NCBI RefSeq assembly: GCF_003721515.1
Contig: NZ_RJJD01000008.1
Coordinates: 689,666-753,665 of the forward strand
Direction of reading: 5' to 3'
Length of the DNA: 64,000 nt
DNA from: Rufibacter latericius
GTDB lineage: Bacteria; Bacteroidota; Bacteroidia; Cytophagales; Hymenobacteraceae
Of the stretch, positions 18,095 to 50,570 are shown piece by piece. The first letter of the stretch is position 1. The number at the start of each line of letters is the position of its first letter. The position numbers were made by a program, and so were the translations under genes. The notes under the pieces are model-generated. The model was given only the letters and a program-made list of their open reading frames with translations. It was not told the origin of the DNA and made no database searches.

Positions 18095-18211
18095 GATAAA
18101 GGTCTTCTGCCCCGGCAGTGGATTTTACAGAATTAAATCAGAAATTTGTACCGCCCTTTGGCGTTTGCTACGGTGGTACCGTTTAGTCATCTTTCTAAAT
18201 CAGAAAACCCA

Positions 18212-32599: not shown

Positions 32600-32634
32600 T
32601 TTTAGCGTCATTTTCCTGAAACTGCAATGAAAAC
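32600..32634. repeat. PIR repeat copy 6 (degenerate)
   Basis: Left arm TTTTAGCGTCATTTT, centre CCTGAAA, right arm CTGCAATGAAAAC. It starts 5 bp after the stop and overlaps the following terminator by a few bases. Confidence 0.5.
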
Positions 32635-32678
32635 AGCAAAAAGGCAGCCTCTATCTGAGGCTGCCTTTTTGCTGTTTT
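32630..32678 (+). terminator. Terminator between the two BtuG-like genes
   Basis: A 22-bp stem: 32630-32651 (containing AAAACAGCAAAAAGGCAGC) pairs with 32657-32678 around TATCT, and is followed by T residues. It would stop most riboswitch-controlled transcription before the second paralogue. Confidence 0.88.
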
Positions 32679-32770
32679 TGCTTCTGGTTTTACCAAAGCG
32701 CAGACCAAGCTTCCGGTCCTGCTCCCCTCCTGACCACCTGCAATTTCGGCTAATTTCATACCTTAGTGAC

Positions 32771-33829
32771 ATGAAACGTTTGTTCCTCCGCAATCAAGTC
32801 CTGATGGGGCTTTTAAGTACTTTTCTCTTGTTTACTACATCTTGCAAAGAGGAGGAAAAAGTGGTGCTTCCCATGTATGAGGCGGGGGTATTGGTCTCCA
32901 ATGAAAGTACGGCAGGAGAACCAAATGGCAGTGTCAGTTATTATGACCGAGCCACCGGCACCGTTGAACCAGATCTTTTCAATAAGGTAAACGGCCGATC
33001 TCTGGAAGGAAACACCCTACAGATGGCCAGTGCGTTTGACAAAACGTACCTGCTCACCGGTAACAAAAAAATAGAAGTCCTTACCTCGCGCACCTTTACC
33101 GCGGCAGGCGTAATCCAAGGGTTGCAGGTTCCGCAGTGGTTTGTGGCCATGAACAGCACCACAGGCTTCGTCACGGACTGGGTAACCGCGCAAGCCGATT
33201 CCGGGAGGGTACTGGAAGTGAACCTACGCACGCTCGAGATCACAGATACCCTCAAAACTGACAAAAGACCAGGAGTAATGGCGATGGGCGGCACCCGGCT
33301 GTACGTGGCCAACAACACCAACAGGATTCATGTCATCAACCCGGCCACCTTAGCCATTGACACCACCATCACCGTGGGGGATAACCCCAACAGCATGGTG
33401 GTAGACGGAGCCGGATTCCTGTGGGTTCTCTGCGGCGGTCGCCCCGATGCCACAACCCCAGCCAACCGCACCAAAGGCAAACTCATCCGGATTACTACCA
33501 ATAACCTAAGGGCGCAACAAAGAGTCTTTGAATTTCCGGGAACCACTTTCCAGCCGAAGAACCTGGCCTTGAGCACCAGCCGTAACCGGTTGTACTTCCT
33601 CAACGGCGGGGTCTACGTGATGGAAACAGCAGCCATAGCCCTGCCAACCGCACCAATCATCCGTAGGCCATTCCAAAGCCTGGGGCAAGACCCTACAGAT
33701 GGATTGTTATATGTCTCCAGAACTGCTCCAGATGGCAAGACCGGGTGGGTGATCAGGTATAAGACCAACGGCGCGGTGGTAGATTCTTTCCAGGTACAGG
33801 GCGTACCCAACGGGTTTAGCTTCCGCTAG
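32771..33829 (+). CDS. BtuG-like surface beta-propeller lipoprotein, copy 2
   Basis: A 352-residue paralogue of the preceding gene. It has Cys25 in FTTSC followed by KEEEK, and a propeller with matching blades (FDKTYLLTGNKKIEVLTS, GTRLYVANNTNRIHVINPAT, GFLWVLCGGRP) and the same C-terminus, DSFQVQGVPNGFSFR. The start at ATG 32771 opens the signal peptide; the longer frame from 32627 runs through the terminator and is rejected. A strong terminator separates it from copy 1, so it may have its own promoter or depend on read-through. Confidence 0.82.
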   Translation: MKRLFLRNQVLMGLLSTFLLFTTSCKEEEKVVLPMYEAGVLVSNESTAGEPNGSVSYYDRATGTVEPDLFNKVNGRSLEGNTLQMASAFDKTYLLTGNKKIEVLTSRTFTAAGVIQGLQVPQWFVAMNSTTGFVTDWVTAQADSGRVLEVNLRTLEITDTLKTDKRPGVMAMGGTRLYVANNTNRIHVINPATLAIDTTITVGDNPNSMVVDGAGFLWVLCGGRPDATTPANRTKGKLIRITTNNLRAQQRVFEFPGTTFQPKNLALSTSRNRLYFLNGGVYVMETAAIALPTAPIIRRPFQSLGQDPTDGLLYVSRTAPDGKTGWVIRYKTNGAVVDSFQVQGVPNGFSFR

Positions 33830-36177: not shown

Positions 36178-36295
36178 GGTTTGAGCCGATAGTTTAGACT
36201 GAAGAAAGAGGACAAAGGCACTACCCCTGTATTTTCTTTGTTATATCCCTACATTCGGGAACGAACCAGCATTTTACCCTTTGTCCCTAAAGCGC

Positions 36296-36865
36296 ATGGA
36301 ACATCACGTATATATTAAGAACATGGTGTGCCCCCGGTGCATTGCCACCGTCACGGAGGTCCTGACCCAACAAGGGCTGGCGGTGCAGGAGGTGAAACTG
36401 GGCGAAGCGGTGGTGACCGCCAACGAAGAACCAGATGCCTCGGCACTCTCGGCGGCGTTGCAGGCCCATGGGTTTGAACTGTTGCAGGAAAAGGAAGAAC
36501 AACTCACCAACCTCATCAAGACCACCCTACTGGAATACCAGCGCCACCTGGAGGAAGAATACCAGCCCATCACCACCTCGGTGTATCTCGCCGATAAACT
36601 GGGCATGTCTTACCAACACCTGAGCAAAGTCTTTTCCCAGCACACCGGCACCACCATTGAGAAACACCTCATCCGCCTGAAGATTGAGCGTGTGAAAGAA
36701 CTCATCTCCTACGGCGAGCTGACCTTGAGCGAAATTGCCTTTCGGCTGCAGTACAGCAGCGTGCAGCACCTTTCCAATCAATTCAAGAAAGTTACCGGCA
36801 TCTCCGTCACCGACTACAAAAAGAACCCTACCGTAGAGCGCCGGCCACTAGACAACCTGGCGTAG
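36296..36865 (+). CDS. AraC-type regulator with N-terminal heavy-metal (HMA-like) domain
   Basis: A 189-residue fusion. Residues 1-65 look like an HMA metal-binding domain with the CxxC pair Cys12/Cys15 in NMVCPRCIATV. Residues about 85-180 form an AraC/XylS DNA-binding domain with two helix-turn-helix units (LADKLGMSYQHLSKVFSQHT and LSEIAFRLQYSSVQHLSNQF) and the typical FKKVTGISVTDYKK end. It should sense a soft metal such as Cu+ directly and control neighbouring genes. The metal genes downstream and their common promoter motif support this. Start at ATG 36296; the TTG at 36281 is rejected. Confidence 0.85.
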   Translation: MEHHVYIKNMVCPRCIATVTEVLTQQGLAVQEVKLGEAVVTANEEPDASALSAALQAHGFELLQEKEEQLTNLIKTTLLEYQRHLEEEYQPITTSVYLADKLGMSYQHLSKVFSQHTGTTIEKHLIRLKIERVKELISYGELTLSEIAFRLQYSSVQHLSNQFKKVTGISVTDYKKNPTVERRPLDNLA

Positions 36866-37029
36866 GCAGGGGTTTCACCTTTCTAGGCGGGTAATTTTAT
36901 AAGAACCGCTGCCGGGTCTGGGCGTATGACTACTGTGAACTTATTTAAAGCTTAGGCACAAAGCCTTCTGCTGAATAAGAAAATAGAGCGTGTTTGTGAA
37001 TCGATTTTGTAAAACCTAATTCAAAACGT

Positions 37030-37359
37030 ATGCACAATTCACAAATCAGACCCGTATTAGATGCCCTCAACGATTGTATTCTAGCCTGCGAGCATTGCGC
37101 CTCTTCCTGCCTGCACGAAGAGCACCTGCACATGATGGTGCCCTGCATTGAGGCTGACCGCGACTGCGCCGATGTCTGCCGCCTGACCCATACCTTATTG
37201 GCCCGAGGGTCAAAACATGGCAAACACCTGCTGCGCGAGTGTATTGAAGTCTGCGAAGCCTGCGCGGCAGAATGTTCTAAGCACGACCATGATCATTGCC
37301 AGGAATGCGCCGCTACCTGCCGCCGTTGCGCCGAGGCTTGCCGGTCTTTGGCTGCCTAA
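37030..37359 (+). CDS. Four-helix-bundle copper-storage-type protein (Csp family), copy 1
   Basis: A 109-residue protein with 16 cysteines spaced along amphipathic helices (DCILACEHCASSC, CADVCR, ECIEVCEACAAEC, HCQECAATCRRCAEAC). This is the pattern of Csp proteins, which line the core of a four-helix bundle with Cys to bind many Cu+ ions. There is no signal peptide, so it is the cytosolic (Csp3-like) kind. A His-rich turn, KHDHDHC, sits before the last helix. It follows the HMA-AraC gene and is followed by a terminator. Confidence 0.9.
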   Translation: MHNSQIRPVLDALNDCILACEHCASSCLHEEHLHMMVPCIEADRDCADVCRLTHTLLARGSKHGKHLLRECIEVCEACAAECSKHDHDHCQECAATCRRCAEACRSLAA

Positions 37360-37411: not shown

Positions 37412-37467
37412 TTTACATCTCATTCCAGGGCCTTCTACGGAAAGCCCCTGATTCTCACCCCAAATTC

Positions 37468-37523
37468 TGTAACTCTTGTTCCGTAATCTGTAACACGCTC
37501 CGGCTTGCCTCTGTTTTTCTTTG
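37468..37523 (+). promoter_or_regulatory. Putative metal-responsive promoter A (CDF exporter gene)
   Basis: Two direct copies of CTGTAAC (TGTAAC at 37468-37473 and 37489-37494) lie 21 bp apart. The second is followed after 21 nt by TTTCTTTG (37516-37523), a near -7 element. The same arrangement precedes three other metal-related genes. Direct repeats two helical turns apart suit an AraC-type activator. Confidence 0.6.
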
Positions 37524-37581: not shown

Positions 37582-38520
37582 ATGGCACACTCCCACGCTC
37601 ACGGTCATGCACATGCGCACCACCATCATGGCCCCAGTTTACCCGCCACTGGCAACCTGAACACGGCATTTCTGCTGGGCATCGGTCTCAACGTGTTGTA
37701 TGTAATGGTAGAAGCCGGAGCCGGATGGTGGTACAATTCCCTCGCGCTGCTCACCGATGCCGGCCACAATTTCACTGATGTCATAAGCCTGCTGCTGGCT
37801 TTCTTCGCCCTCAAAATCTCCCAGCGCAAACCCACCGATCGGTTTACCTATGGGTATGGGAAAAGCACCACCCTGGTTTCTCTGCTCAATGCGGTGTTGC
37901 TGTTGCTGGCCGTGGGCGCCATCGGGTGGGAAGCCATTGAACGGCTGGGCACCGCCCCGGCGCTCAACGGAACCGCTATTTCTCTGGTCTCTGGCGTGGG
38001 TATTCTCATCAACGCGGGCACCGCTCTCCTCTTCTTCCGGGACAAAGACCATGACATCAACGTGAAAGGGGCTTACCTGCACATGGCCGCCGATGCGCTG
38101 GTGAGCCTGGGCGTGGTAGTTGCCGGAGTGGTGATGTATTACACTGATTGGTTCTGGGTAGATGCCGTCATGAGTCTGGTGATTGTGGCCGTAATTGTCT
38201 GGAGTACCTGGGGGTTGCTGGTAGAATCGTTGCGCCTCACTTTGGATGCCGTTCCGCACGGGGTAGATTTGGCAGCTATTCGGGCGTACTTGCTGGAGGT
38301 ACCCGGCGTCACCGAAGTCCATGACCTGCACGTCTGGGCCATGAGCAGCACCGAGAATTCCCTCACCGCCCATCTGGTAGTAGAAGAAGATTCTTCCGAT
38401 TTCCAGTTATCCGAGATCCGGAATGACCTCCGCGACCATTTCCATATTCCGCACGTGACCCTGCAGGTGGAACGCGGAACCGAAGGCCACGCCTGCGCCG
38501 ATGCCGGGGTATATCATTGA
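37582..38520 (+). CDS. Cation diffusion facilitator family transporter
   Basis: A 312-residue CDF exporter (CzcD/ZitB-like) with a His-rich N-terminus (HSHAHGHAHAHHHH), six predicted membrane helices, and the two HxxxD metal-site motifs, one in DAGHNFTDV and the other in HMAADALVSLG. The C-terminal cytoplasmic domain ends at about residue 300 (PGVTEVHDLHVWAMSS). The family usually exports Zn2+, Co2+ or Cd2+ by proton antiport. Its place among copper genes suggests co-regulation, not necessarily copper transport. Confidence 0.93.
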   Translation: MAHSHAHGHAHAHHHHGPSLPATGNLNTAFLLGIGLNVLYVMVEAGAGWWYNSLALLTDAGHNFTDVISLLLAFFALKISQRKPTDRFTYGYGKSTTLVSLLNAVLLLLAVGAIGWEAIERLGTAPALNGTAISLVSGVGILINAGTALLFFRDKDHDINVKGAYLHMAADALVSLGVVVAGVVMYYTDWFWVDAVMSLVIVAVIVWSTWGLLVESLRLTLDAVPHGVDLAAIRAYLLEVPGVTEVHDLHVWAMSSTENSLTAHLVVEEDSSDFQLSEIRNDLRDHFHIPHVTLQVERGTEGHACADAGVYH

Positions 38521-38613: not shown

Positions 38614-38982
38614 ATGCGTACCGAGTATAAACCGGCCATTGATGCGTTGTTGGCCTGCATCGCGGCCTGCGACCACTGCGCCACCGCCTGCCTGCAGGAA
38701 GAAGAAGTCAAAAAAATGGCGCGCTGCATCCACTTGGACCTGGACTGCGCCGATTACTGTAGCTTGGCGGCTTCGTTTCTGTCAAAGGGTTCTGAGCACG
38801 CCCGCCTGGTGCTGCGTCAGTGCGTGGAGATCTGCGAGGCCTGCGCGGTAGAATGCGAACGCCACGCCCACGACCATTGTCAGGAATGCGCCGCCGCCTG
38901 CCGACGATGCATTGAAGTCTGCCAGGAACTCATCCCAAAACCAGATGCCGTAACTGAAATGCTGTATGCCTCAGCGCCATAA
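38614..38982 (+). CDS. Four-helix-bundle copper-storage-type protein (Csp family), copy 2
   Basis: A 122-residue paralogue of the Csp protein at 37030, again with 16 cysteines in the same spacing (LLACIAACDHCATAC, CADYCS, QCVEICEACAVEC, HCQECAAACRRCIEVC). It has an extra C-terminal tail of about 15 residues. No signal peptide. It lies 93 bp after the CDF gene and lacks an obvious TGTAAC element, so it is probably read through from the CDF promoter. Confidence 0.9.
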   Translation: MRTEYKPAIDALLACIAACDHCATACLQEEEVKKMARCIHLDLDCADYCSLAASFLSKGSEHARLVLRQCVEICEACAVECERHAHDHCQECAAACRRCIEVCQELIPKPDAVTEMLYASAP

Positions 38983-39066: not shown

Positions 39067-39104
39067 TTTAGAGACCTTTTTATCAGGACCAAACCCGCCT
39101 AAAA
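39067..39104. repeat. PIR-like repeat copy 11 (weak)
   Basis: TTTAGAGACCTTTTT and CCGCCTAAAA flank a longer centre. It is the weakest listed copy and may be a degenerate second unit beside copy 10. Confidence 0.3.
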
Positions 39105-39128
39105 TCCTGCACTTCTTCTACAGAATTG

Positions 39129-39162
39129 TGTAACCGCCCCGCCCTAGCTCCTGCTAGATTTG
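39129..39162 (+). promoter_or_regulatory. Putative metal-responsive promoter B (flavin oxidoreductase gene)
   Basis: CTACAGAATTGTGTAAC (TGTAAC at 39129-39134) is followed after 20 nt by TAGATTTG (39155-39162), a good -7 element. There is no TTG at -33; the TGTAAC box takes its place. A weaker TGCACT lies 21 bp upstream. Confidence 0.6.
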
Positions 39163-39185: not shown

Positions 39186-40262
39186 ATGCAAACCAGAAGT
39201 GAACCTATACTTTCCCCCGAATCAGGAAACAGCTATGACGTCATCGTCATTGGGGCGGGACAAGCCGGCTTAGCGATGGGCTATTACCTGCACCTCCAAC
39301 GGAAAAACTTCCTGTTGCTGGACGCTGCAGCCCAGGTAGGCGACTCCTGGCGAGCCCGGTATGATTCCTTACGCCTCTTCACCCCCGCTGAATATTGCTC
39401 TTTGCCGGGTTGGCCCTTGCTGTTACCTAAAGGCTACTACCCCACCAAAGATGAAATCGCTTCTTACCTGCAGCAGTATGCCGCGCAATTCCAACTTCCG
39501 GTAAAGTTAAAGCAGCCGGTGGTAAGCATGAGTAAAGCCAATGGGACTTTCCAGATCCAGACGCCCACCCAGGTATGTCAAGCCCGGCAAGTGGTAATAG
39601 CAACCGGCCCGTTCCAGACGCCTTTTGTCCCAGACATTGCGAAGACTCTTCCGCCGGAAATTACCCAACTGCACAGTTCGCAGTACCGAAACCCCTCCCA
39701 AGTACCCAATGGCAACGTGCTGGTGGTGGGAGCCGGTAACTCCGGGGCTCAGATTGCGGTGGAACTGGCCCAGACGCATGAAGTACAGGTATCCGTCAAG
39801 AGGAAGCCTAGGTTCTCGGCCCTTCGTATGCTCGGACAAAGTGTCTTCTGGTGGGCCACTCAGACAGGGGCCATTTATGCCTCTCCTTCTTCTAGGGTAG
39901 GTAAAAAGGTTCTGCAGAAAAGCGATGTCATTTACGGGCAGGATTTCCAAAAACTGCTCAAAAAGGGAGAAGTGCTGCTCAGGTCCGAGATTGTTGCTCT
40001 TAAAGAACAGGAAATGGTTTTCAAGGATGGCAGCCGCGCCACCTTCAACAGCATCATCTGGGCTACCGGCTTTCGGCCCGAGTACGGGTGGTTACAGGTT
40101 GAGGGCGCATTAGCGGAAAACGGTCACCCAATCCATAAACAGGGAGTAAGTCCGGTGGAAGGTTTGTTTTACCTGGGCCTCTCCTGGCAGCGGAGCCGAA
40201 GTTCGGCCTTGCTGCTGGGTGCTGGGCATGATGCTCAGTTCATCGCGCAGCGACTGGTATAA
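39186..40262 (+). CDS. NAD(P)/FAD-dependent oxidoreductase (CzcO/flavin monooxygenase-like)
   Basis: A 358-residue enzyme with an N-terminal FAD-binding Rossmann motif (VIVIGAGQAGLAMGYYL), a second NADPH-binding motif (VLVVGAGNSGAQIAVEL) and an ATGxxP-like IWATGFRPEYGWLQ segment, the pattern of class B flavin monooxygenase relatives named CzcO in some metal-resistance clusters. The substrate is unknown. It shares the TGTAAC promoter element with copA and the CDF gene, which ties it to the metal response. Confidence 0.85.
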   Translation: MQTRSEPILSPESGNSYDVIVIGAGQAGLAMGYYLHLQRKNFLLLDAAAQVGDSWRARYDSLRLFTPAEYCSLPGWPLLLPKGYYPTKDEIASYLQQYAAQFQLPVKLKQPVVSMSKANGTFQIQTPTQVCQARQVVIATGPFQTPFVPDIAKTLPPEITQLHSSQYRNPSQVPNGNVLVVGAGNSGAQIAVELAQTHEVQVSVKRKPRFSALRMLGQSVFWWATQTGAIYASPSSRVGKKVLQKSDVIYGQDFQKLLKKGEVLLRSEIVALKEQEMVFKDGSRATFNSIIWATGFRPEYGWLQVEGALAENGHPIHKQGVSPVEGLFYLGLSWQRSRSSALLLGAGHDAQFIAQRLV

Positions 40263-40267
40263 AATTA

Positions 40268-40324
40268 TGTAACAACAGGGCTACAATGGTGTAACGCCTC
40301 GGGCAGAAGGGCGCTTTATCTTTG
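40268..40324 (+). promoter_or_regulatory. Putative metal-responsive promoter C (copA gene)
   Basis: TGTAAC boxes at 40268-40273 and 40290-40295 lie 22 bp apart. The second, in CTACAATGGTGTAAC, is followed after 21 nt by a perfect -7 TATCTTTG (40317-40324). No TTG at -33. Confidence 0.65.
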
Positions 40325-40360: not shown

Positions 40361-42604
40361 ATGGCAACCTTAACGAAAGAGAAAACAAAACCCGCCATAA
40401 AGAGCAGCTTTCCCATTGACGGGATGAGCTGTGCCGCCTGTGCCGTAAGCGTGGAGTCCATGCTACAGGCACAACCCGGCGTGCAGAGCGCGGCCGTGAA
40501 CTACGCCAATAAAACTGCCTTGGTCGAATACCTCCCCGGCACCGATCTGCGCCTTTTGCAGAAAGCCATTCAGGACATCGGCTATGATCTGCTTTTGAAG
40601 GAAGAAGAAGCCACCCACGAGGCTCAGGAAGCCCGCGAGCAGGAAGCCTATTCACGCATCAAAACCAAAACAATTTGGGCGGGGGCCCTGTCTTTGCCGG
40701 TGGCAGTGATTGGCATGTTCTTCCACCACATGACCTACGGCAACTGGATTATGCTTGCGCTCACCTTGCCAGTGGTGTTCTGGTTCGGGCGCACGTTTTA
40801 CGTGAATGCCTTTAAACAGGCCCGACACGGCAAAGCCAACATGGACACGCTGGTAGCCCTGAGCACCGGCATCGCGTTTCTGTTCAGCGCCTTCAACACC
40901 ATTTACCCTGAGTTCTTTTTGTCCCGCGGATTAGAGCCGCACGTCTATTTTGAGGCCGCTACGGTTATCATCGCCTTCATCCTTTTAGGCAAGATGCTGG
41001 AGGAACGGGCCAAATCCCGCACCTCAGGCGCTATCAAAAAGTTGATGGGTTTGCAGCCAAAATCAGTAAAAGCGCTGCGCAACGGTCAGGAGATTGAACT
41101 GCCTATTGAGAAAGTGGTAGTGGGCGATGTCCTGCTCATCCGGCCGGGCGAGAAGATTCCGGTGGATGGTCGGGTAATCAACGGTTCTTCCTTTCTGGAC
41201 GAGAGCATGATAAGCGGCGAGCCGATTCCGGTGGAGAAAACCGCCGGAGACCAGGTTTTCACGGGCACTATCAACCAGAAAGGCAGCCTGCAGATCTCCG
41301 CGGAGAAGGTGGGTGCCCAGACGCTTTTGGCCCAAATTATCAAAATGGTGCAGGAAGCGCAGGGCTCCAAGGCGCCCGTGCAGAAACTCACCGATAAAGT
41401 GGCCGGCATCTTCGTGCCCATCGTCATCGGGATTGCTGTGCTCAGCTTTGCGGCCTGGTACTTCCTGGGTGGAGACAACAACGTGACCCACGCGCTGCTG
41501 GCCTTCATCACCGTGTTGATTATCGCCTGTCCATGTGCACTGGGTTTGGCAACACCTACCGCCATCATGGTGGGCGTGGGCCGCGGGGCCGAGAACGGAA
41601 TCCTGATCAAAGACGCCGAGAGCCTGGAAACGGCCCATAAACTCACCGCCATTGTGCTGGACAAAACCGGAACCATCACCAAAGGCAAACCCGAAGTAAC
41701 CGAGCTACTCTGGGCCGTTCCTGAGGAAAAACAAGCGGAACTGGCCTCGGTGTTGCTGGCTTTGGAAAACCAATCGGAGCACCCGCTGGCCGAGGCGGTT
41801 TCCAGGCACTTATCCCAAAACGAAGTAAAAACGGTTTCCCTGGAGAACTTCGCCAGCGTGACCGGCCGTGGCGTGCGGGCGCAGTACCAAGGCCAGACTA
41901 TCTGGCTGGGTAACGAAAAACTGATGCAGGAGAATGGCCTCCGTTTAGAGGCTGATTTAGAGAAAACAGCCCAGAAACTGAAGGCCGAGGCCAAAACCGT
42001 GGTCTTCGCGGGAACGCAGGGCCAGGTCATCGCGCTCATCGCCATCGCCGATACCATTAAGGAAACCTCGGCGCAAGCCATCCAGGACTTGCAAAAACTT
42101 GGCTTGAACGTGTACATGCTCACCGGTGATAATGCCCAGACCGCCGCCGCTGTGGCGCAGCAGGTGGGGCTGCAACACTTCAAAGCCGAGGTGATGCCGC
42201 AAGACAAAGCCGATTTCATCAAAGAACTGCAGCGTAAGGGACACGTGGTAGGCATGGTGGGTGACGGCATCAACGACTCACAAGCGCTTGCCCTTGCGGA
42301 TGTGGGCATCGCCATGGGCCGCGGCACCGACATCGCCATGGACGTGGCGAAAGTGACCCTTATGCACTCAGACCTGCAAGCCATCGCCAAAGCCATTCGG
42401 TTGAGCAAAGCCACCGTGCGCACCATCCACCAGAACCTGTTTTGGGCGTTTATTTACAACGTGATCGGAATACCGGTGGCGGCGGGGTTGCTTTTCCCGG
42501 TGTGGGGCTTTCTGCTGGATCCCATGCTGGCAGGCGCGGCCATGGCGTTGAGTTCCGTATCAGTGGTGACCAACAGTTTGCGCCTTAGAACGTTAAAACT
42601 TTAG
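40361..42604 (+). CDS. copA: Copper-translocating P-type ATPase CopA
   Basis: A 747-residue P1B-1 ATPase exporting Cu+ from the cytosol. It has one N-terminal HMA domain ([16 protein letters not shown]), the membrane metal site CPC in [15 protein letters not shown], the phosphorylation loop [14 protein letters not shown], the HP motif SEHPLAEAV, and [20 protein letters not shown]. The last helices hold [11 protein letters not shown] and [12 protein letters not shown], the Asn/Tyr and MxxSS signatures of Cu+ pumps. Start at ATG 40361; the TTG at 40334 is rejected. A small HMA gene follows 42 bp later. Confidence 0.96.
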
Positions 42605-48688: not shown

Positions 48689-48737
48689 GCATGAAGTTGA
48701 CCTCTTCCTGTAATTATACACAAGTCTTACAAAATGG

Positions 48738-48772
48738 TGTTAAACTCCGGGCAGGGGTATGCGTTTTCTTTG
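48738..48772 (+). promoter_or_regulatory. Putative metal-responsive promoter D (His/Met-rich outer-membrane protein gene)
   Basis: TTACAAAATGGTGTTAA (TGTTAA at 48738-48743, one change from TGTAAC) is followed by CTCCGGGCAG, very like promoter C, and after 21 nt by TTTCTTTG (48765-48772). Confidence 0.55.
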
Positions 48773-48806: not shown

Positions 48807-50570
48807 ATGAAACGAATTCTCACCTTAGGATTAGCTCTTTCCCTGAGCCTACTCACCGCCCAGGCCCAGCATGAGCACCATACTCCGCCCGCAAAAAAGG
48901 AAACGAAAAAAGAAGTGGCCCCAGCAGCCAAAAAAGTAGCGCCTGCTCCCAAAGCAAAACCTTCAAAGCTTCAACCCATCAAGAAGAAACCCGCGCCCCT
49001 TCCGGCGAAGGCAAAGGCCCCGGCGACTAAACCCGCGGCAACCTCAACCCGGAAAGCTCCCGCAACCACAGCTCCGCAGGACCACTCGCACCACCAGATG
49101 ACTTCCGATTCTGCGCAGCACCAAGGGCACCAGATGTCTGCCGATAGCCTGAACAAAGCGAAGACCTCGGGTCATGAAGGACATACCGCGCCTGCAGACA
49201 CCGCGAAAGGCCACCAGCACCACCCCGGCATGAACATGAACCACGCCGCGATGGCTTCTGACACTACCCAACATTCAGGCATGAACCACGGCACGGGCGG
49301 CATGAGCCACGGCACGGGCGGCATGAGCCACTCGTTTTCCCGCAATCTGCCCATGAACCGGAACGGCTCCGGCACCTCCTGGCACCCCGATGCCACGCCC
49401 ATGTATGGCTACATGAAACACGCCGGCGACTGGATGCTCATGTTCCACGGTCAGCTTTGGCTCCGCTACAACAAGCAGGATATTTTCAACAAAGGCTCGC
49501 GCGGTGATTCTCAACTAGACGCCCCCAACTGGTTTATGGGAATGGCTCAACGCGAAGTGGGTAAACGTGGTTTGTTGCGCTTCAGTGTGATGATGAGTTT
49601 GGATGAACTCACCATGGGTGACCGCGGCTATCCCTTGCTGTTCCAGAGCGGCGAGACCTACGGCGGCGGAAAACGACTGGTAGACCGCCAACACCCGCAT
49701 GATTTGTTTTCAGAAATCAGCGTGGGCTACACGCACATGCTGAACCAGGATATGGACGTGTACGGTTTCTTCGGATATCCTGGGGAGCCGCCGGTGGGTC
49801 CGCCCGTGTTCATGCACCGCATCTCGGCGTTCAACAACCCAGAGTCGCCGCTGGGGCACCACTGGCAGGATGCCACGCACATTACCTTCGGGGTGGCTAC
49901 GGTGGGGTTCCGGTACAAGCAGTTCAAGCTTGAAGGCTCTAACTTCACAGGCCGTGAGCCCGACGAAAACCGCTACGACTTTGACAAAGCCCGCTTTGAC
50001 TCTTATGCGGCTCGCCTATCCTACAACCCCACAGAGAACTGGGCCCTGCAAGTATCGCGCGGCTGGCTGAAAAGCCCTGAGTCACTGGAGCCTGAGGAGG
50101 ACGTGACCCGCACCACGGCTTCGGTCTTATACAGCCGTCCGCTGGCAGGTGGCGGTGACAGGTTCTTTACCTCGGCCTTTATCTGGGGCTTCAACGGCGG
50201 CGGACACCACAAAGAGCATTCGGCCATTGCCGAAGCCAACCTGCAGATGGACAGAACCGCCATTTACGGCCGGTATGAGTACGTGCAGAAAACACCCGGT
50301 GAGTTGGACCTTACCGATCAGTTTGACCACCACGATGTCTTTGACGTGCACGCCCTTACCCTAGGAACGAGTCAACGCGTCGCCAATTTCGCTAATACGT
50401 ATTTAACCGTTGGTGTGCAGGCTTCTGTCTTCGCGCCAGATAAACTGCTGAAGCCGCTGTATGGCAAGGCCCCGGTTTCCGGCGAGATTTACCTCCGTCT
50501 GAACCCCGGTCTAATGATGGGCAGCAACCGGTCGCGCACCTCCTCTTCAGGTATGCAACATCAGCACTAA
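48807..50570 (+). CDS. His/Met-rich outer-membrane beta-barrel protein, probably copper-related
   Basis: A 587-residue exported protein. The signal peptide (KRILTLGLALSLSLLTAQAQ) is followed by a Lys/Pro/Ala-rich linker (about 29-90) and a His/Met-rich region (about 91-180: DHSHHQMTSD, GHQHHPGMNMNHAAM, GMSHGTGGMSHGTGGMSHS). The C-terminal 390 residues alternate polar and aromatic residues as in an outer-membrane barrel (WMLMFHGQLWLRYNKQ, VSGEIYLRLNPGLMMG), ending in MQHQH. The Met/His clusters resemble Cu+/Ag+-binding segments of PcoB/CopB proteins. It shares promoter architecture with copA. Start at ATG 48807. Confidence 0.8.
   Translation: MKRILTLGLALSLSLLTAQAQHEHHTPPAKKETKKEVAPAAKKVAPAPKAKPSKLQPIKKKPAPLPAKAKAPATKPAATSTRKAPATTAPQDHSHHQMTSDSAQHQGHQMSADSLNKAKTSGHEGHTAPADTAKGHQHHPGMNMNHAAMASDTTQHSGMNHGTGGMSHGTGGMSHSFSRNLPMNRNGSGTSWHPDATPMYGYMKHAGDWMLMFHGQLWLRYNKQDIFNKGSRGDSQLDAPNWFMGMAQREVGKRGLLRFSVMMSLDELTMGDRGYPLLFQSGETYGGGKRLVDRQHPHDLFSEISVGYTHMLNQDMDVYGFFGYPGEPPVGPPVFMHRISAFNNPESPLGHHWQDATHITFGVATVGFRYKQFKLEGSNFTGREPDENRYDFDKARFDSYAARLSYNPTENWALQVSRGWLKSPESLEPEEDVTRTTASVLYSRPLAGGGDRFFTSAFIWGFNGGGHHKEHSAIAEANLQMDRTAIYGRYEYVQKTPGELDLTDQFDHHDVFDVHALTLGTSQRVANFANTYLTVGVQASVFAPDKLLKPLYGKAPVSGEIYLRLNPGLMMGSNRSRTSSSGMQHQH
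49286..49327 (+). repeat. 21-bp tandem duplication in the Met/His-rich region
   Basis: Two identical 21-bp units (49286-49306 and 49307-49327) encode two tandem copies of a 7-residue unit (HGTGGMS, in any phase). It could expand or contract by slippage and change the number of metal-binding motifs. Confidence 0.8.

Follow-up and report, generated by a model that had tools for sequence, protein, structure and literature searches.

The window analysed here, a stretch of 64,000 nucleotides from Rufibacter latericius, encodes an AraC-type protein of only 189 amino acids. The question raised by this locus is what such a short regulator senses and which genes it serves. The preliminary description of this DNA had read the protein as a metal sensor, in which an HMA-like N-terminus with CPRC at the metal-loop position is joined directly to a minimal AraC domain, and the fold, the cysteines and the linkage to copper genes described below support that reading. 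It is likely that the regulator is a cytoplasmic one-component sensor that activates transcription in response to copper, and it very probably switches on copper-detoxification genes. Computation yielded the two folds, the conservation of the cysteines, the linkage to copper genes, and the operator with its constant spacing from the -7 element. The regulator and its two domains are as follows.

36296 to 36865, plus strand: HMA-AraC regulator, 189 amino acids, an open reading frame with ATG start (Pfam, AlphaFold2, VIA-align)
36296 to 36484, plus strand: HMA-like putative sensor domain, residues 1–63, with the fold of CopZ (Z 9.1) and the metal loop M10-V-C12-P-R14-C15
36494 to 36853, plus strand: AraC/MarA-type DNA-binding domain, residues 67–186 (MarA, Z 14.0; Pfam HTH_18)

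The ATG start is common to the closest relatives (L009–L014), whose upstream DNA aligns poorly. A TTG at 36281 was considered as the start and rejected, the DNA upstream being unconserved in these close relatives. In Pfam searches, residues 98–176 matched HTH_18 (E 1.8e-19, 70.2 bits against a cut-off of 33.6) and also HTH_AraC. The C-terminal domain with two helix-turn-helix motifs expected of an AraC/XylS member is thus present (HTH_18; MarA Z 14.0). The HMA model (PF00403) was found at residues 5–61 with E 0.001 and 19.8 bits, under its curated cut-off of 24.8. A phmmer search of solved structures returned AraC-type domains, and residues 7–61 resembled the HMA domain of a CopA (3fry, E 0.00025).

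Structure prediction was carried out with AlphaFold2 on a 58-row alignment of the regulator and 57 relatives (pLDDT 94.8, pTM 0.88). Residues 2–63 were predicted to form beta-alpha-beta-beta-alpha-beta, the order of an HMA fold, so that the ferredoxin-like N-terminus on which the preliminary description depended is seen in the model. When the predicted model was compared with known structures in VIA-align, residues 1–63 matched CopZ (6ff2, rmsd 2.0 Å, 63 residues aligned) and residues 67–186 matched MarA (1bl0, rmsd 2.3 Å, 113 residues aligned). One helix, 66–87, leads from the HMA part to the DNA-binding part, and the model has no linker domain between them, in agreement with the direct junction noted earlier. 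Judged by the predicted fold and the motif, the N-terminal domain is filed as HMA-like, and not as an HMA member by sequence. A chance resemblance to HMA (E 0.001) was considered and rejected on the predicted fold and the conservation of the cysteines.

At least 558 stretches encode relatives of the regulator. The best 80 of these were analysed, along with 60 loci hand-picked, one per genome, from among the matches listed (best first); 2 of the 60 repeat stretches among the 80. The loop reads MVCxRC at 80/80 and 59/60 loci, the exception being MACNCC at L144. Both cysteines of the CxxC in the first HMA loop are therefore kept at 140/140 loci examined, and the cysteine conservation in homologues that the earlier reading called for was found throughout. 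The 58-row family alignment shows no variation at N9, M10, V11, C12, R14, C15, G36, G59 and F60, and the Pfam HMA model was missing in 35 of the 58 members even at E 1. The loop at 139/140 loci is thus MVCxRC, in which no acidic residue stands before the first cysteine; we take this to be the Cu(I)-type MxCxxC form. From the loop and its surroundings we infer that the domain binds Cu(I).

To follow what lies near the regulator, the genes concerned are listed first. The first five are on the same strand 3′ of it, in the order csp1, CDF gene, csp2, flavin monooxygenase gene and copA.

37030 to 37359, plus strand: csp1, four-helix-bundle copper-storage-like protein with DUF326 repeats, under the cut-off of the NCBIfam Csp1 model
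37582 to 38520, plus strand: CDF family cation efflux protein; the best specific model is ZitB, under its cut-off
38614 to 38982, plus strand: csp2, second copper-storage-like protein, 93 bp 3′ of the CDF gene
39186 to 40262, plus strand: flavin-containing monooxygenase; the best NCBIfam model is ArsO, under its cut-off
40361 to 42604, plus strand: CopA, Cu(I)-type P1B-1 ATPase, with GMSCAAC, CPC, N6YN4P and MxxSS
48807 to 50570, plus strand: His/Met-rich exported protein, start re-assigned from 48759 to an in-frame ATG

The four motifs of CopA are presumed by us to signify the Cu(I)-type P1B-1 class. The exported protein, which gave no Pfam or NCBIfam match, has the look of an outer-membrane protein on our reading. 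The start at 48807 is likelier than that at 48759, because the listed open reading frame begins before its predicted -7 element.

The neighbourhood survey that the preliminary description had suggested was carried out, and it favours copper. A P1B ATPase lies within about 8 kb of the regulator at 44/60 hand-picked loci and at 34/80 best relatives, as against 1/19 other AraC genes of this genome used as control. Some copper-type gene was found near the regulator at 50/60 and 52/80 loci respectively, and near 2/19 controls; some of the loci surveyed end at contig ends. Homologues of the exported protein lie 3′ of the regulator at 12/80 and 4/60 loci. The 46 best relatives (of 80) without a P1B ATPase within reach, which count against the copper reading, include 28 from Hymenobacter. 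At these Hymenobacter loci the gene 3′ of the regulator often encodes a homologue of the exported protein seen in the window, and the operator motif described below was mostly not found. A paralogue of the regulator (42 % identical) is encoded elsewhere in the same genome, where its neighbours make up a second copper cluster: a P1B ATPase, a copper-storage protein, a CusB-type protein and, as read from the sequence, a CusA-like protein.

Copper is not the only signal that could be considered. Another soft metal or a thiol/redox signal might be sensed, with the copper genes nearby merely as parts of general metal-resistance islands. CxxC pairs can be redox-active, and the window cluster holds the ZitB-like CDF gene and the ArsO-like monooxygenase gene, both predicted to have the operator. 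Against this, CPC, N6YN4P and MxxSS occur together in 33/34 (best relatives) and 41/44 (hand-picked loci) of the neighbouring ATPases, which are thus of Cu-type, copper-storage and CusA/CusB-type genes recur near the regulator among the loci surveyed, and the metal loop is without the acidic residue typical of Zn/Cd HMA domains. We regard a signal other than copper as improbable. On the copper reading, the ZitB-like CDF protein and the ArsO-like monooxygenase may instead belong to the copper response, as their predicted operators suggest.

Other features of these neighbourhoods were recorded. At L150 and L171 the adjoining P1B ATPase has CPH in place of CPC, and is presumably a different copper/silver-type pump. 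Upstream of the regulator, a DUF5074 beta-propeller gene is present in the window (32627–33829) and at 32/80 relatives' loci (L009–L046 regions), and a TonB receptor gene is found in the upstream region at 31/80; the two resemble, as we take it, a BtuB/BtuG-like cobalamin pair.

If the regulator controls these genes, a common site is expected at their promoters. Alignment of four Rufibacter-group copA upstream regions gave a conserved pair, AATTATGTAAC and AATGSTGTAAC, from which L013 differs by one base in each half; intergenic DNA of distant relatives looked similar to this pair. For de novo derivation, expectation-maximisation was carried out on the 150 bp after the regulator stop. The 140 loci were reduced to 129 by removal of near-duplicates and short pieces, and were split into 64 training and 65 test regions. 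The motif obtained was AAATTTTAcAAaa.tt.tc.AAAATT.TgTAACag (likelihood 289.5 vs 126.5 on shuffled DNA). Sites that scored beyond the 99th percentile of mononucleotide shuffles were present in 25/64 training and 25/65 held-out test regions, compared to 4/121 control regions upstream of the regulator at the same threshold; 39/64 training and 40/65 test regions had no site above it. The operator derived from the relatives thus consists of two direct half-sites, AAATTTTAcAA and AAATTnTGTAAC, 21–22 bp apart. A strict TGTAA repeat was found in 1/140 regulator-upstream and 4/66 copA-upstream regions (shuffled means 0.35 and 0.2), so the half-sites are looser than that. A search for motifs in the 350 bp that precede copA had yielded coding sequence only, on our reading the regulator's 3′ end and a small HMA gene, and was discarded.

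The window was scanned with a two-box model of 46 sites, with L009–L014 omitted from the final matrix. The sites of this first scan had been located by a motif trained with some of L009–L014, and the whole training was therefore redone without them (the clade-free model). Scores of the first scan are given below, with those of the clade-free model (first-scan box layout, 44 sites) in brackets. All sites are predicted.

36893 to 36926, plus strand: conserved element before csp1, with the second half-site AATTTTATAAGAAC and GGGCGTA, in 7 genomes with small differences
37462 to 37494, plus strand: operator before the CDF gene, 26.2 (26.3), period 21; TTTG at 37520, 25 nt after box 2
39102 to 39134, plus strand: operator before the flavin monooxygenase gene, 20.5 (20.6), period 21; TTTG at 39159, 24 nt after box 2
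40262 to 40295, plus strand: operator before copA, 26.6 (27.2), period 22; TAnnTTTG at 40317 and TTTG at 40321, 25 nt after box 2
48711 to 48743, plus strand: operator before the exported-protein gene, 18.2 (19.2), period 21; TTTG at 48769, 25 nt after box 2

In the first scan the next score after the four promoters was 14.9, and six one-strand shuffled windows reached 16.7. In the clade-free model the next score was 15.3. Sixty random windows were generated with a first-order Markov model and scanned on both strands; their best scores reached those of copA, CDF, monooxygenase, exported protein and the next site in 0, 0, 0, 2 and 15 cases. With the 36-column clade-free model without its first three columns, the CDF (23.7), copA (20.0) and monooxygenase (19.7) sites were still at the top, while a site at 18123, which lies between unrelated genes, scored 16.8 and so exceeded the exported-protein site (13.4); 18.2 was reached by 7/60 random windows in this narrower model. 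Thus, as predictions, the operators at CDF, copA and monooxygenase genes are firm; that of the exported-protein gene is marginal by score, with the right phase. The csp1 element was not recovered as a two-box match in the scans of this window, and as a genome-wide probe it gave 3 matches vs 7 controls. It is possibly a degenerate operator.

Sites were also looked for in the rest of the genome. The second copper cluster has its two best matches (22.1 and 20.4) on the minus strand; one of them precedes the copper-storage gene, and the other lies about 390 bp upstream of the start of the ATPase gene. When up to 2 mismatches were allowed at period 21, the operator pattern gave 3 matches vs 0 controls in this genome: the CDF site, the monooxygenase site and one before a small cysteine-rich protein gene, whose contig also carries the second copper cluster. 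The copA site was matched with period 22. At 3 mismatches the pattern did no better genome-wide than the control (8 vs 6; 4 vs 6); one such match precedes a second copA-like gene. The plain pattern was also applied to 36 hand-chosen genomes with and without the regulator. The 17 genomes that have the regulator gave 39 matches vs 10 controls and the 17 that lack it gave 22 vs 10, so that the pattern separates the two groups weakly.

Two regulator-bearing genomes of one genus, G021 and G025 (L220, L239, L221, L240), were omitted from that count, with 34 and 26 operator-like repeats and 1 control match each. Three of four sites inspected in them have TTTG at 23–24, not 25, and one precedes a stress-type gene, which we take to be DUF892-like. 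These matches look unrelated to copper, and another regulator with similar half-sites may act there. At L222 a perfect operator pattern (G029:C1:1713983-1714014) lies upstream of the regulator gene itself, so that the gene may be autoregulated in some species.

Position relative to the promoter is the next feature of the predicted operators. TAnnTTTG is the Bacteroidota -7 consensus. Among the 43 distinct sites with enough DNA after them, a TTTG starts 25 nt after box 2 in 16, and no other position has more than 2; two of these sites are from the Rufibacter group, and related sequences are included, so that not all are independent. In the clade-free set the same distance was seen in 24/51 sites, with no other position above 3. 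Four further sites of this genome gave three at 25 and one, in the second copper cluster, without the phase. Ten pattern sites in other regulator-bearing genomes had TTTG at 25 (three), 26 (one), 24 (two) or 23 (one), or none near (three). Those at 25 precede two HMA-containing genes and another exported protein; one of those without TTTG nearby lies about 600 nt before a CusA-like gene. With this fixed distance to the -7 element, box 2 falls where the -33 element would lie. AraC/XylS members bind direct half-site repeats at the promoters they activate; at the candidate promoters here such a repeat and its phase are predicted from sequence, and box 2 at the -33 position, as expected of an activator that replaces this element, is read as class-II activation.

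The same sites could be occupied by a repressor that copper releases: the apo-protein on the repeats would block the promoter, and copper on the HMA domain would free it, as for CsoR and CopY. The predicted operator is close to the promoter, and a review describes repressors in three of four established families of Cu(I) sensors (PMC7558416). The operator lies upstream of -7 at one fixed phase with box 2 at -33, which suits a contact with sigma; a repressor site would need no such phase. Furthermore, AraC-family proteins are mostly activators. Repression is therefore considered quite improbable, and from the promoter geometry we infer that the regulator activates.

The activation mechanism may then be proposed as follows. 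When cytosolic copper rises, Cu(I) would be taken up by the HMA domain via C12 and C15. The AraC domain would occupy the two direct half-sites, two helical turns apart and beside the promoter, where the second half-site would take the place of the -33 element and RNA polymerase would be recruited. The targets would be copA, the CDF gene with csp2 behind it, the flavin monooxygenase gene, the exported-protein gene and probably csp1, and copper would as a result be exported, stored and handled at the cell surface. The switch that we prefer is the pairing of two HMA domains by Cu(I), through a metal bridge or in some other way, because the predicted operator is a two-site repeat and no dimerisation domain other than the HMA part is evident in the regulator. 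A metal-bridged HMA pair is attractive since CopZ-type proteins can form Cu(I)-bridged dimers; among the structures compared, the metallochaperone 2qif contains a tetranuclear Cu(I) cluster.

The HMA domain could alternatively be a docking site, to which CopZ or the HMA domain of CopA hands copper over, or which is masked by them until the exporters are saturated; the domain would then not sense Cu(I) itself, whether free or buffered. That HMA domains pass copper to one another is well established. A small HMA protein is encoded at 21/81 loci, typically near the copA end, and the CopA of the window has its own HMA domain (Pfam). The invariant arginine between the cysteines, presumably atypical of CopZ or Atox1, could on the other hand hinder or specialise such docking. 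We find this alternative rather unlikely, and direct sensing of Cu(I) by the regulator remains the preferred reading.

How does this regulator compare with known proteins? It shares with CopZ and Atox1 the fold and the MxCxxC loop, the difference being that in the regulator the domain forms the N-terminus of a transcription factor; it also differs by the invariant N9, R14, G36, G59 and F60 and by a sequence under the Pfam HMA cut-off. With MarA, SoxS and Rob it shares the minimal AraC/XylS DNA-binding domain, and its predicted sites resemble those of AraC at araI1-I2, which are direct half-sites two turns apart beside the promoter. Unlike these proteins and AraC, it has an HMA-like effector domain in place of a cupin or other ligand pocket, and its two-site repeat differs from the single 20-bp marbox of the MarA type. 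In the N-terminal half of E. coli Ada, too, an AraC-type DNA-binding domain is combined with a small cysteine/metal domain, and residues 83–175 of the regulator weakly match Ada (NCBIfam, E 0.0027); Ada has a structural zinc and senses methylation damage, not copper.

CueR, CsoR, CopY and the ArsR-type sensors resemble the regulator in cytoplasmic one-component control of copper export genes, and CueR also in being an activator, as proposed here; their DNA-binding and metal-binding folds are unrelated to those of the regulator. CueR (TIGR02044) is not among the best 25 of the regulator's 30 NCBIfam matches, and no MerR family was found in Pfam; in place of a MerR-type DNA-binding domain and a C-terminal copper loop, the predicted fold is HMA plus AraC. 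CsoR (PF02583) is absent from its four Pfam matches, and the predicted fold differs from the all-helical CsoR/RcnR. This genome gave no match to the CsoR family, and CueR above its cut-off was found in 0/198 genomes (best in this genome, 25.4 bits against 147.4); this lack of the known cytosolic sensors favours the copper reading of the regulator. CueR-like genes under the cut-off exist in the phylum, up to 137.6 bits. In three genomes (G163:C20, G038:C11, G054:C10) such a MerR gene lies about 3–7 kb from the regulator, and the two kinds of sensor are thus not exclusive. CsoR-type genes (61 genomes) and the regulator (95) tend to exclude each other, with 8 of 198 genomes having both (Fisher p 2e-11), a value uncorrected for descent, with regulator presence taken for handles up to G197, to which little weight is given.

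A 2020 review describes four Cu(I)-sensing families that control efflux, and AraC does not appear in its main text (PMC7558416). In a BLAST survey of Bizionia argentinensis, MerR and CopY homologues without copper sites and two ArsR/SmtB candidates were reported, AraC again being absent from the main text (PMC11213822). An HMA-AraC protein as copper sensor was not described in the full-text literature searched, subscription journals and preprints being outside its scope, which agrees with the earlier remark that such proteins have had little study.

The family is widespread. The source titles of the best 80 relatives are Bacteroidota genera, Balneolaceae, Ignavibacteria and Melioribacteraceae, and when the phylum was sampled evenly, 181/395 genomes and 95/171 genera had a match (E 1e-20 or better). 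Plasmid matches comprise 31 records under ten organism names, which we recognise as Bacteroidota; 22 of the 25 plasmid matches listed are annotated solely as AraC-family or helix-turn-helix. At L071, L072, L073 and L074 (titled Nubsella, Empedobacter, Chryseobacterium and Moheibacter) the regulator and the regulator-copA spacer are letter-identical, and recent transfer of the copper cluster is suggested by this identity across four genera.

The family is thus a candidate additional Cu(I)-sensor family. In its fullest form the proposal is tentative, with a somewhat less than even chance of holding: a further Bacteroidota family in which Cu(I)-paired HMA domains would set otherwise monomeric AraC domains on a two-turn direct repeat. 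The copper regulon so activated would include, in this genome, the CDF transporter and the flavin monooxygenase together with the copper-storage proteins and the His/Met-rich exported protein. The regulon and operator predicted here can be tested at once. If the reading is true, the family would fill a gap in copper sensing for much of a phylum, and the chaperone fold would be reusable directly as a sensor.
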